Assembly: GCA_017795085.1 (NCBI GenBank) | Contig: CP051246.1 | Coordinates: forward strand, 2,110,514-2,174,513 | DNA: 64,000 nt | From: Salegentibacter sp. | Lineage (GTDB): Bacteria; Bacteroidota; Bacteroidia; Flavobacteriales; Flavobacteriaceae | Direction: 5' to 3' | Shown: piece by piece, positions 5,378 through 9,026 of the stretch | How positions within the stretch are numbered: the stretch's first letter is position 1 | Layout: each line of letters begins with the position of its first letter | Program-made: the position numbers and the translations under genes | The notes under the pieces: generated by a model | Database searches by the model: none | The model's input: only the letters and a program-made list of their open reading frames with translations | What the model was told of the DNA's origin: nothing

Positions 5378-6790
5378 ATGAAATTACAACTACTTGTATT
5401 TTCGCTTTTTAGCATCCTGATTTTCGGTTGTTCACCCAATAAAGAAAATGACTCTGTTTTTATTGGCGGCGAAATTATAAACCCTGTTTCTGAATATTTT
5501 ATTTTATCTCGCGATGATAAAATAATCGATACCGTATTTCTTAATCAGAAAAATCAGTTTAGACAACAATTTAAAGGTTTAAAAGAAGGTATCTATACCT
5601 TTAATCACCCCCCCGAAAACCAAATTATGTATTTAAGCCCCGGCGATAGTATTATGCTCTGGTTAAATACCATGGATTTTGACCAATCTATTAATTTTAG
5701 TGGGCGTGGAGCCGAAAAAAGTAGCTATTTACTAGAAATGTTTCTTCATAATCAAGAAAATAATGATTTTATACTCTCTTATTATAAAATTCCCCCTGCT
5801 GAATTTGCCAGTATCACCGATTCCATCCGTAAACATAGGTATAACAAATTAAACAGGTTTATTGAAAACAAAGAATATTCTGAGAAATTCCTTGATATTG
5901 CCGAAGCTAGTATAGATTACGAATATTTCCATTTGCGGGAGCGTTATACCTTTTTAGCCGAAAAATATTATCGGGAACTTGCCGAGCAAATCCCCAAAGG
6001 TTTTCATAATTATCGAGATGAAATTGATTTTAATAACAAAAACCTTAGCTCCTATTATGTTTACAATAATTTTATAGAAGATTTTTTACGTACACAGGCT
6101 ATAGAACGCTGTAGAAGTCAAAATAACCCGGAATGTTATAATCTTACTAATTATGAAGGCATAAAATACCGTATTTTATTAGGTGATTCGTTAATTGAGG
6201 AGAAAAAAATAAAAAATCGGTTTTTAAATCGGCTGGCTTCACAAGGAATCACTTTTGCAAAAGATTCCACCGATATCGAAGCTACTTTAGCATTACTGGA
6301 CAGTATAAATTACTCTGGGAATTTTGAAGATATCAAGACCATGGCCACTATTCAGAAACGATTATTACCAGGCAACAATCTTGGAGAACTCGAGCTTTTA
6401 AATAAAGATCTAAATTCAATAAAAATTAAAGCTCTTACACAAAAACCTGCAGTAACCTATCATTGGTCTATGTATTCAAAAGGACATTTTTATTGGCAAC
6501 AAAACATTATTAACCGTCTTAGAGAACGCTATCCTGAAGTTGATTTTATAGGAATAAATATCGATAATAACACTAAGCAAACCTGGCAAAAAATTGTACG
6601 TGAGGATAGCAAAGACCCCAAGTACGAATTTCAACTGGGCGAAGTAGATGTAAACCGTGAACTTTTACAAGCTTACCTTCACAAACTCTTTTTTATAGAT
6701 TCTTCGGGTACTATTGTTTACGGGGGCGCAAAACTCAATTCTCCCACCTTTGAACGCGAAATCCTGGAATTTTTAAACAGTCAGGAATAA
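5378..6790 (+). CDS. Lipoprotein with C-terminal thioredoxin-like fold lacking the CxxC motif
   Basis: 470 aa. A signal peptide with lipobox (LIFGC, Cys18) predicts a lipid-anchored periplasmic or outer-membrane protein. The N-terminal third is beta-rich (ILSRDDKIIDTVFLNQKNQF) like the DUF4369-type start of Bacteroidota TlpA-like proteins. The middle is helical and charged. Residues about 345-470 look like a thioredoxin fold (FIGINIDNNTKQTWQKIV, then LFFIDSSGTIVYGG), but the redox site reads TYHWSMYSKGH with no cysteine. It therefore cannot act as a disulfide oxidoreductase. A binding or structural role is possible. It is monocistronic with its own promoter-like element. Confidence 0.65.
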   Translation: MKLQLLVFSLFSILIFGCSPNKENDSVFIGGEIINPVSEYFILSRDDKIIDTVFLNQKNQFRQQFKGLKEGIYTFNHPPENQIMYLSPGDSIMLWLNTMDFDQSINFSGRGAEKSSYLLEMFLHNQENNDFILSYYKIPPAEFASITDSIRKHRYNKLNRFIENKEYSEKFLDIAEASIDYEYFHLRERYTFLAEKYYRELAEQIPKGFHNYRDEIDFNNKNLSSYYVYNNFIEDFLRTQAIERCRSQNNPECYNLTNYEGIKYRILLGDSLIEEKKIKNRFLNRLASQGITFAKDSTDIEATLALLDSINYSGNFEDIKTMATIQKRLLPGNNLGELELLNKDLNSIKIKALTQKPAVTYHWSMYSKGHFYWQQNIINRLRERYPEVDFIGINIDNNTKQTWQKIVREDSKDPKYEFQLGEVDVNRELLQAYLHKLFFIDSSGTIVYGGAKLNSPTFEREILEFLNSQE

Positions 6791-6904
6791 AATAAATTGG
6801 TTCAAGGTTTAAAATTTGACATTTAGTTTTCAGTATCCAATTTTTAGAAGTAGGAAACTCCCAATTTTCTAGGCCTAACAGGTTAAAGCGTATATTGCAA
6901 CATA

Positions 6905-7064
6905 CTAGTGTTAAGTTAAGCATAGTTTAGCCGGCCCAAGTTTTGTTCTTTTTCCCTTTTTCTTCGTTGGAAAAGCCTCACTTAGCTATGCTATGCTACG
7001 TTTTTCCGCCTCCAAAAAGAAAAAAATTGCGGCAACTTAACCGACACACTGAACTTAACACTAG
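6905..7064. repeat. 160-bp MITE-like palindromic element with 13-bp terminal inverted repeats
   Basis: CTAGTGTTAAGTT (6905-6917) and AACTTAACACTAG (7052-7064) are perfect inverted copies bounding 160 bp. The interior is rich in smaller inverted pairs, such as GGAAAA against TTTTCC and a T-rich run against an A-rich run. It carries no transposase ORF. No clear target-site duplication was found. From memory, similar elements with the same core (GCTATGCTATGC) recur in other Flavobacteriaceae, but no second copy was found in this window. The right end lies in the reading frame of the FecCD-type permease. Confidence 0.75.
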
Positions 7065-8163
7065 ATTTGCTTTAAAAGTTTTAGCACCAACGAAAAATTC
7101 AGATATTTACATTCTCAATTCCATTGCCAATCTTTTGTTCAAAAACAATTATATACTTGTACTTTCTCTACTCCTGCTATGCGTAGGTTTACTCACCTTA
7201 GTCAATCTGGCCAGTGGTTCGGTAAATATTCCGGTAAAAGATGTAATCGCATCCCTTTCTAATTTTGAGGTTAGTAAAGATACCTGGAGATATATCGTAC
7301 TGGAATACCGGCTTCCTAAAGCAATTACAGCAATTATTACCGGATCGGGCCTTGCAGTTAGCGGACTTCTAATGCAAACTCTTTTTAGAAACCCTTTGGC
7401 CGGACCGTATGTATTAGGATTAAGTAGTGGCGCGAGCCTGGGGGTTGCCATTGTTTATATGGGAGCCGGAATATTTGGCGGAACTTTCGCTGCTTTATTA
7501 CTTTCTAAATGGAGCGTAGTCATTGCTTCCAGTTTGGGTAGTTTATTGGTTTTACTTGCTGTAATGATTGCTTCCTTAAAACTTAGGGATACTATGGCTA
7601 TTCTTATTATCGGGTTAATGTTTGCCAGTTTAACCGCTGCTGTGGTAAGTGTCCTTTCTTATTTTAGTCCTGCAACAGATTTACAACAATATATATTCTG
7701 GTCTTTTGGAAGTTTAGGAAATCTTTCCTGGGAAGAAGTCTTGGTTTTAAGCCTTTTTTGGATACTTGGAATTATTCTTTCCATCGCCTGTATTAAAAAC
7801 CTTAACAGCTTATTACTCGGCGAACAATACGCAAAAAGTTTGGGGGTTAGCATACAAAGCAATCGGTTTTTAGTGATTATCGCCACCAGCTTACTGGCCG
7901 GAAGTATTACCGCTTTCGCCGGCCCTATCGCTTTTGTTGGATTGGCAGTACCGCATTTAATCAGACAGGTTATTCCTACCAATAATCATAGTATCTTAAT
8001 TCCGGCTGTAATTTTAGGTGGGGCGGTTTTAATGCTTTTGTGCGATATTGCCGCACAAATACCGGGCACCGAATACACTTTACCCATAAATGCCATTACC
8101 TCTATAATTGGAGCACCGGTAGTGATTTGGTTATTGGTTAGAAAACGCCGATTTTTATTCTAA
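6943..8163 (+). CDS. FecCD-family ABC permease for iron-siderophore, heme or cobalamin uptake
   Basis: From about residue 66 the sequence is a standard FecCD permease: many hydrophobic helices, LEYRLPKAITAIITGSGLAVSG, TLFRNPLAGPYVLGLSSGAS, and the EAA-like loop FAGPIAFVGLAVPHL. It imports a metal chelate across the inner membrane with the ATPase at 8232. The start is doubtful. An ATG at 6943 or 6988 gives the long form, but residues 1-41 then come from the MITE-like element. A TTG at 7135 would leave 342 aa, the normal family length. The insertion may have displaced the original start. No substrate-binding protein gene is adjacent. Function firm, N-terminus uncertain. Confidence 0.85.
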   Translation: MFFFPFSSLEKPHLAMLCYVFPPPKRKKLRQLNRHTELNTRFALKVLAPTKNSDIYILNSIANLLFKNNYILVLSLLLLCVGLLTLVNLASGSVNIPVKDVIASLSNFEVSKDTWRYIVLEYRLPKAITAIITGSGLAVSGLLMQTLFRNPLAGPYVLGLSSGASLGVAIVYMGAGIFGGTFAALLLSKWSVVIASSLGSLLVLLAVMIASLKLRDTMAILIIGLMFASLTAAVVSVLSYFSPATDLQQYIFWSFGSLGNLSWEEVLVLSLFWILGIILSIACIKNLNSLLLGEQYAKSLGVSIQSNRFLVIIATSLLAGSITAFAGPIAFVGLAVPHLIRQVIPTNNHSILIPAVILGGAVLMLLCDIAAQIPGTEYTLPINAITSIIGAPVVIWLLVRKRRFLF

Positions 8164-8231: not shown

Positions 8232-9026
8232 ATGAACACCAATCCTAAAAATAGCATATTAAAAACCGAAAACCTTAACATTGGCTACCCCGGAAAAAAA
8301 TCGGGGGTACTTATTGCTGAAAATTTAAATATTGAAATAAATCCTGCAGAATTAGTGGCAGTTATCGGCATTAACGGAATTGGAAAATCAACTTTATTAC
8401 GTACCCTAAGCGGAGTACAACCGGCACTGTCAGGAAAAATTCGCATAGATGGCAAAGAACTTGAAAAATTAGATGCGCTTAGTCAGGCTTCCCTTATTAG
8501 TTTGGTACTTACAGGCCAGCCTGTTTCCAAAAATCTCAGCGTTTTTGAACTTGTAGCCCTTGGCAGACAACCCTATACCAATTGGATTGGCCGCTTAACC
8601 AAAAAAGACTTGCGCCAAATTAAAAAAGCTTTATCCCTGGTAGATATTGAAAATTTAGAACAACAAAAATGTTACGAATTAAGTGACGGGCAAATGCAAA
8701 AAGCACTTATTGCCCGGGCCCTGACACAAGATACTCCGCTGGTAATTTTAGATGAACCAACCACACACCTGGATCTTTATCATAAGGCCTATGTACTAAA
8801 ATTACTAAAAAAACTAACCCAAAAAACCAACAAAGCCATTGTTTTTGCCTCCCATGAAATTAACCTAGCACTGCAATTATGCGATAAAATTATCCTGATG
8901 CAAAAAGACAAATTAATAAGCGGAAGTCCCAAAGACCTAGTTAGGTTTGATGAACTTGAAAAAGTTTTCCCACCCGATCTTATTTTTTTTGATAAACAAA
9001 GTGCTTCTTTTAAAATAAAAACCTGA
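8232..9026 (+). CDS. ABC transporter ATP-binding protein, FecE/HmuV/BtuD type
   Basis: 264 aa. Walker A GINGIGKST at about 48-56, Q-loop region LVLTGQPV, signature LSDGQMQK (D in place of the usual second-position G), Walker B LVILDEPT, D-loop THLDL and H-loop ASHEINLAL. The order, and the short C-terminal tail, fit ATPases of type II metal-chelate importers. It starts 68 bases after the FecCD permease and would energise it. The substrate (heme, siderophore or cobalamin) cannot be decided without the binding protein, which is not in this window. Confidence 0.88.
   Translation: MNTNPKNSILKTENLNIGYPGKKSGVLIAENLNIEINPAELVAVIGINGIGKSTLLRTLSGVQPALSGKIRIDGKELEKLDALSQASLISLVLTGQPVSKNLSVFELVALGRQPYTNWIGRLTKKDLRQIKKALSLVDIENLEQQKCYELSDGQMQKALIARALTQDTPLVILDEPTTHLDLYHKAYVLKLLKKLTQKTNKAIVFASHEINLALQLCDKIILMQKDKLISGSPKDLVRFDELEKVFPPDLIFFDKQSASFKIKT

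Follow-up and report, generated by a model that had tools for sequence, protein, structure and literature searches.

A FecCD-family ABC permease gene of Salegentibacter sp. raises the question of where its protein begins, and of what the short repeat lying just upstream has brought to it. The gene lies in a stretch of 64,000 bp (hereafter the window), which corresponds to positions 2,110,514-2,174,513 of a genome represented by a single 4.73-Mb contig. A first-pass annotation of the window had placed both ATG codons available to the gene inside a 160-bp MITE-like element, which thus appeared to donate the start of the permease. We examined the ends of the element, the start of the gene in relatives, and the inner part of the element, which turned out to be present in many other genomes. 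The features discussed are listed in Table 1.

Table 1. Features of the element and its surroundings (positions in the window)
Feature	Positions	Strand	Remarks
MITE delimited by 13-bp ends, CTAG included	6905-7064	+	160 bp
Left terminal inverted repeat, CTAGTGTTAAGTT	6905-6917	+	same sequence as one end of each of six genomic IS630-family copies
In-frame TAG inside the element, closing the upstream reading frame	6928-6930	+	
Conserved polar hairpin core, common to MITEs with other ends	6942-7032	+	model R2: 78.5 bits on +, 22.0 bits on -
TTG, called ATG in the first-pass annotation	6943-6945	+	
Only in-frame ATG inside the element	6988-6990	+	predicted RNA fold: apical loop (two bases) and closing stem (one base)
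Right terminal inverted repeat, AACTTAACACTAG	7052-7064	-	inverted match of CTAGTGTTAAGTT
TTCAGATATTTACA, remnant of the ~65-bp leader found upstream of the permease gene in the genus	7098-7111	+	
FecCD-family ABC permease gene, from the likely TTG start	7135-8163	+	Pfam PF01032, orthologue comparison
ABC transporter ATPase gene, downstream of the permease	8232-9026	+	

Results

The element and its ends

The element could be seen directly in the window, its ends CTAGTGTTAAGTT and AACTTAACACTAG forming a perfect 13-bp inverted repeat. The genome-wide search for these ends, proposed with the first-pass annotation, returned eight exact matches in the 4.73 Mb: two are the MITE's own ends, and six are one end each of IS copies of 1,212-1,214 bp, whose other end differs from the 13-mer by one or two mismatches. 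Domain search on one IS copy revealed two overlapping frames, HTH then DDE_3. The second was identified as an IS630 transposase (NF033545, 167.7 bits vs a cut-off of 100), while the first alone scored 64.7 bits, below the same cut-off. Because its 13-bp ends are identical to one end of this resident IS630-family IS, the 160-bp element is a MITE with ends of IS630 type. The MITE-like nature suggested at first pass is also supported by two related degenerate copies, at positions 897,290 and 1,106,557 of the genome. At six other places in the genome where the 13-mer is nearly matched (L050, L051, L054-L057), no match to the IS was found.

All six IS630-family copies (L044-L049) share a run of eight A near base 497, and their transposase is split over two overlapping frames, which suggests that it may be produced by programmed frameshifting.

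Similarity between the element and the resident IS copies exceeds chance at the ends only (13-19 bp). The inner part, a core of about 90 bp, was looked for in the six IS630 copies and is absent from them, and we rejected the idea that it could be a deleted IS fragment. The element contains no transposase gene: among ORFs of 60 aa or more, just two overlap it, the FecCD frame and a 62-aa ORF at 6735-6923 on the minus strand. Neither tandem repeats nor tRNA genes were found in the window, and the element region had no match in a plasmid collection.

IS630 elements duplicate TA at their target. If this boundary applies here, the element proper spans 6908-7061 (154 bp), for a net gain of 156 bp, or 52 codons; TA was found on both sides in two of the three IS630-class copies scored. 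The empty site before insertion would have been ACATA-CTAG-ATTTG, and the uninterrupted target would read ...ACATACTAGATTTG..., with a single CTAG.

The start of the permease gene

The FecCD frame is open from 6931, that is, back into the element, and the ATG at 6988 looks like a start because the stretch from the element's stop to the gene is open. Of the two ATG codons claimed at first pass, the one at 6988 is indeed an ATG and the one at 6943 is a TTG; a further ATG, at 6993, lies in another frame. Although 156 bp, the net length inserted, divides by three, this is meaningless for the upstream side because of the TAG inside the element. As previously placed, the conserved protein begins around the TTG at 7135, which sits just before it: Pfam PF01032 (FecCD) matches residues 83-400 of the 406-aa ORF starting at 6943.

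Of the 14 other genus genomes searched, 13 have a FecCD orthologue. Neither the element nor its core was detected at any of these 13 loci, which were covered to about 1.5 kb on either side. The earliest codon able to start translation is, in each of the 13, a TTG at codon -1 relative to 7135; no ATG or GTG precedes it in frame, and seven have a TTG at the 7135 position itself as well. The preceding gene appears to overlap the permease start in two of them. The window has CTT at codon -1, and its start would fall one codon later than in its relatives. In other genera (20 of 80 loci looked at), the codon just ahead of the 7135 position reads ATG in 5/5 Christiangramia, GTG or ATG in two Gillisia and TTG in 3/3 Salinimicrobium.

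Because the 13 orthologues without the element have a TTG at codon -1 as their first possible start, the permease is likely translated from TTG 7135, the ATG at 6988 being incidental, and the comparison indicates that the element does not supply the ancestral start of the gene. What it donates is the apparent start retained by a computer gene call. Between the two outcomes envisaged at first pass, a chimeric N-terminus or a non-ATG start, the orthologues thus favour the second, and we rejected the chimera as the main reading. Orthologues lacking the element and sharing the same N-terminal 60 residues were looked for, and none was found among the 13, which start downstream. The same position of their starts, downstream of the element-derived residues, sets the element apart from protein-invading palindromic elements of the RPE type.

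We consider it very improbable that translation really begins at ATG 6988, which would place the permease start 49 codons before the TTG 7135 position and make its N-terminus element-derived. In-frame fusions of MITEs to proteins are known in other bacteria (PMC2229807), and here the ATG is in frame with an open reading frame. Yet not one of the 13 genus orthologues has an in-frame ATG upstream while all have the TTG before the 7135 position, the Pfam domain starts past the element-derived part, and the ATG occupies the tip of a hairpin within a predicted fold of -40.9 kcal/mol.

Leader and promoter context

A strongly conserved leader of about 65 bp precedes the permease gene, as one copy per genome, in 11 of the 15 genus genomes, the window's own genome being unmatched at the search threshold. 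Identity to the copy at L140:1405-1500 is 89-96% in nine genomes and 77% in a tenth (G006). The leader is absent from the two species whose preceding gene seems to overlap the permease start, and common to the other 11 of the 13 with an orthologue. In the window, TTCAGATATTTACA lies 23 bases before codon 7135, vs 22 in a relative; because this one-base difference in length puts it in another reading frame, the stretch is best taken as a leader and not as conserved coding sequence. Conserved as it is before the permease (window 7065-7134), it may be a regulatory leader.

The insertion might then alter permease expression, either by parting the leader from a promoter further upstream or by bringing in a promoter, an outcome that we hold to be unlikely. 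The element does lie directly upstream of the position of the leader kept in 11/15 genomes, and TAGATTTG at 7062-7069 (TAnnTTTG), which we take to fit the flavobacterial -7 consensus, spans its right junction. However, the window shows no clear excess of TAnnTTTG (106 occurrences vs 91.0 +/- 8.7 after shuffling, with as many in 9/100 shuffles), and, judged from the inferred empty site ACATA-CTAG-ATTTG, the -7-like motif would predate the insertion. A scan for sigma-70-type promoters remained at chance level (1 found, 1.1 expected).

A hairpin core present in many genomes

In an early search of 99 genomes, the middle of the element matched other genomes where the ends did not (four genomes, its own included). 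A first model of this core, R1, was built from an alignment of eight copies, and a larger one, R2, was used thereafter for wider searches. Model E-values are rough, and searches over more than 40 genomes used stricter filters, so that the counts below are lower bounds. With R1 at E<=1e-3, the window's own genome has three copies, a fourth match standing at E 0.19, and the core was found in at least 49 of 199 sampled genomes of the family (Flavobacteriaceae), or at least 49 of 198 genera. In two of the family genomes, at least 22 R1 candidates were scored. With R2 at E<=1e-4, the core was found in at least 10 of 395 genomes of the phylum, including two (G398 and G402) from another order of the same class, with up to 10 candidates scored per genome. 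Among the 80 loci from which the other genera above were taken, R2 gave two clear matches, in the MAG Bacteroidetes bacterium B1_G11 (L098, 74.8 bits) and in Hyunsoonleella flava (L127, 48.3 bits). The core, submitted as a 261-bp copy, had no match in either a plasmid or a phage collection.

At one locus (L263, G187:C1:1164700-1165050), we observed a core-MITE variant of about 215 bp with some 50 extra bp inside the hairpin; ends spaced in the same way recur at two other places in that genome.

Different ends around the same core

We then surveyed the ends of 94 copies of the core from 40 genomes, using 60-bp flanks. The best 13-bp inverted match between the flanks had 11 or more matching bases in 86/94 copies, vs 15/94 when the right flank was taken from another genome. 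Sixty-one copies could be classed by end motif (TACCA 37, TACGA 8, GAGnCTG 8, GTGTTA 3, TACTCA 3, G(T/G)AACTGT 2), the motifs and the search range of 25-48 bp from the core having been chosen after looking at the copies; the other 33 met no motif on both sides and were left uncounted. All 58 non-IS630 copies are 158-163 bp long, although lengths of roughly 136-186 bp could have been recovered within the search range. The IS630 class comprises just five copies, two of which have degenerate ends; the three scored for length and flanks measure 154 (window), 159 and 162 bp, so that 60 of the 61 classed copies are 158-163 bp long, the sole exception being the 154 bp of the window. Identical TAA/TTA trinucleotides flank 39 of the 58 non-IS630 copies, and identical flanking duplications are missing in the other 19, including 3/3 of the TACTCA class. 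A single genome (G177) contains core copies with IS630-type, TACCA-type and GAGnCTG-type ends.

For the GAGnCTG ends AGAGCCTGTTTAA, an IS5 parent was found: an 860-bp IS in genome G441 (NF033580, 139.9 bits vs a cut-off of 110), in which the core was looked for and is absent. No parent IS was recognised for the ends in G229 and G187, where inspection by eye of the 33 and 24 places listed gave no end pair at IS distance, nor for those in G132, where the pattern of the ends occurs at two places only. The IS5-family copy of G441 (L259) has an early in-frame stop in its transposase, and that genome contains many short copies bounded by the same ends.

A tree of the core was built from 92 columns and 78 of the 94 copies, labelled by hand, the rest being left out. 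It is poorly resolved (44 of 70 inner branches open, 9 starred, 7 names with long end branches). Ends and core seem to have been mostly inherited together, with few switches, because this tree needs 10 end-class changes, vs 30.4 when labels are shuffled and a least possible number of 5; genome changes number 38. We read these data as describing a MITE superfamily whose hairpin would have outlived changes of ends.

Covariation in the hairpin, and how it might act

To examine the pairing, 48 non-redundant cores from 31 genomes were retained out of 74 copies, rows alike at about 85% or more, or containing N, being dropped, and were aligned by MAFFT without structure. Over the 26 pairs of the hairpin, covariation was 0.340, vs 0.117 +/- 0.009 after shuffling and 0.10-0.15 when the pairing was slid. 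Changes on both sides of a pair numbered 159 (50.3 in shuffled data) and occurred in 23/26 pairs, and 83.3% of cells were paired, vs 45-52% when slid. Related rows inflate such covariation scores, and part of the covariation could have been selected for, since the recruiting model R1 held 17 of the pairs; for the six pairs absent from R1, it was 0.391, vs 0.141 +/- 0.022 shuffled and 0.09-0.18 slid.

In the known process of quasi-palindrome correction, template switching in imperfect palindromes copies one arm to the other. The matched changes of the two arms could therefore be neutral, with no function needed, which we regard as somewhat unlikely though deserving of weight. MITEs are palindromic by nature, and RNAalifold predicted no consensus structure on the 48-row alignment. 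On the other hand, correction should erase mismatches, yet a C.C mismatch at columns 40/58 is retained in 37/48 rows, and 38/48 keep an extra T at column 28. The core is moreover polar, the window copy scoring 78.5 bits with R2 on one strand vs 22.0 on the other.

The core could also act as RNA, either in neighbouring transcripts (processing, stability or termination) or as a small RNA of its own, an alternative that we find distinctly unlikely. Transcripts of bacterial MITEs can regulate adjacent mRNAs (PMC2229807), and the window copy folded as RNA (-40.9 kcal/mol, z -3.26) does better than 200/200 shuffles. As single-stranded DNA, the window element is moderately better than its shuffles (z -2.74, with 3/200 as good). 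This difference points against a preference for DNA. However, orientation to the neighbouring genes shows no bias over 52 loci (++14, --17, -+16, +-4, one unassigned), as determined from crude ORF calls of at least 90 aa, by which the window permease was itself missed as right neighbour, its ORF running into the element. Wobble cells favour neither strand (87 G.U vs 85 A.C), a search for terminator-like sites at 6780-7200 found none, and the core has no Rfam match at gathering score, either in the window or at 15 core loci.

The only Rfam match above cut-off at these 15 loci lies outside the core: a Flavo-1 RNA (RF01705, 45.7 bits, cut-off 42) at L160:1167-1307, in genome G057, which adjoins a core MITE (1501-1587).

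We favour DNA over RNA because of the absence of orientation bias and the equal wobble counts, both of them weak results. That the hairpin acts as DNA in the transposition or maintenance of the element itself has, in our estimate, slightly less than an even chance.

Discussion

The whole account that we propose, a MITE with IS630 ends upstream of a permease gene started at TTG, and belonging to a superfamily with a shared core and changed ends, appears probable to us. A 154-bp MITE with IS630-family ends would have inserted at CTAG, about 70 bp upstream of a permease gene already using TTG. It would belong to a MITE superfamily defined by a polar hairpin core of about 90 bp and a length of about 160 bp, hosted by Flavobacteriaceae and by at least one family of another order. 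The ends of this superfamily would have changed several times, between IS630-type ends with TA duplication and IS5-type and other ends with TAA/TTA duplication, the matching transposases presumably mobilising the MITEs in trans. The hairpin would act as DNA, as a single strand or a cruciform, and would serve transposition of the element itself, not the control of host genes.

MITEs are generally portrayed as remnants of a single IS, and little importance is attached to their inside. In the BOX repeat, the inner modules vary in number, whereas in the family described here it is the ends that vary, around a constant core. BOX, from Streptococcus pneumoniae, is a modular folded repeat whose boxC can encode a start codon in expressed frames (PMC3049150). 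Another pneumococcal repeat, RUP (repeat unit of pneumococcus), is an IS630-Spn1-related MITE of 107 bp with a TA target (PMC2229807, PMC3049150). As presented there, it is similar to the window family in being short and non-coding, in targeting TA and in having ends that resemble those of an IS630-family element resident in the genome; it differs from it by its length, 107 bp vs about 160 bp, and the family described here spans many genera and has a core common to MITEs with non-IS630 ends. The Correia/NEMIS elements of Neisseria, of 107 and 155 bp, also have inverted repeats and a similar size, and functional motifs have been proposed for them at the DNA or RNA level (PMC2229807). They have other hosts, and the available part of that source, with which we compared by description only, makes no mention of a core common to different ends. 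Rickettsia palindromic elements and Yersinia RU-2 are MITEs fused to proteins (PMC2229807), in frame with the host gene, as had been proposed at first pass for the window element; unlike them, the fusion in the window is unsupported, the orthologues indicating a protein start downstream of the element. REP/RAYT palindromes carry a GTAG or CGTC tag beside the hairpin and have a tyrosine transposase partner (PMC3733652, PMC2817692), and the inverted ends with flanking duplications found here point away from them. A search of terms in the accessible text of a 2024 review of prokaryotic MITEs (PMC10969869) gave no match. In titles and the beginnings of abstracts, drawn mostly from literature outside subscription and without ISfinder, we found no description of the core or of MITEs with a common core but different ends.

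For annotation, the locus illustrates that a MITE can displace the predicted start of a TTG-starting gene by 49-64 codons. For the biology of these many related marine bacteria, what stands out is a hairpin common to MITEs with quite different ends. A polar hairpin with compensatory change, found in dozens of genera at a near-constant length and with varied ends, suggests that the inside matters and that the ends are exchangeable. We tentatively raise the idea, which we judge more doubtful than not, that the hairpin is the real unit of selection, possibly acting as single-stranded DNA, carried by the ends of at least two unrelated transposase families, IS630 and IS5, and needing a spacing of about 160 bp between ends. 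If true, this would be a MITE swapping its driver while retaining its engine part.
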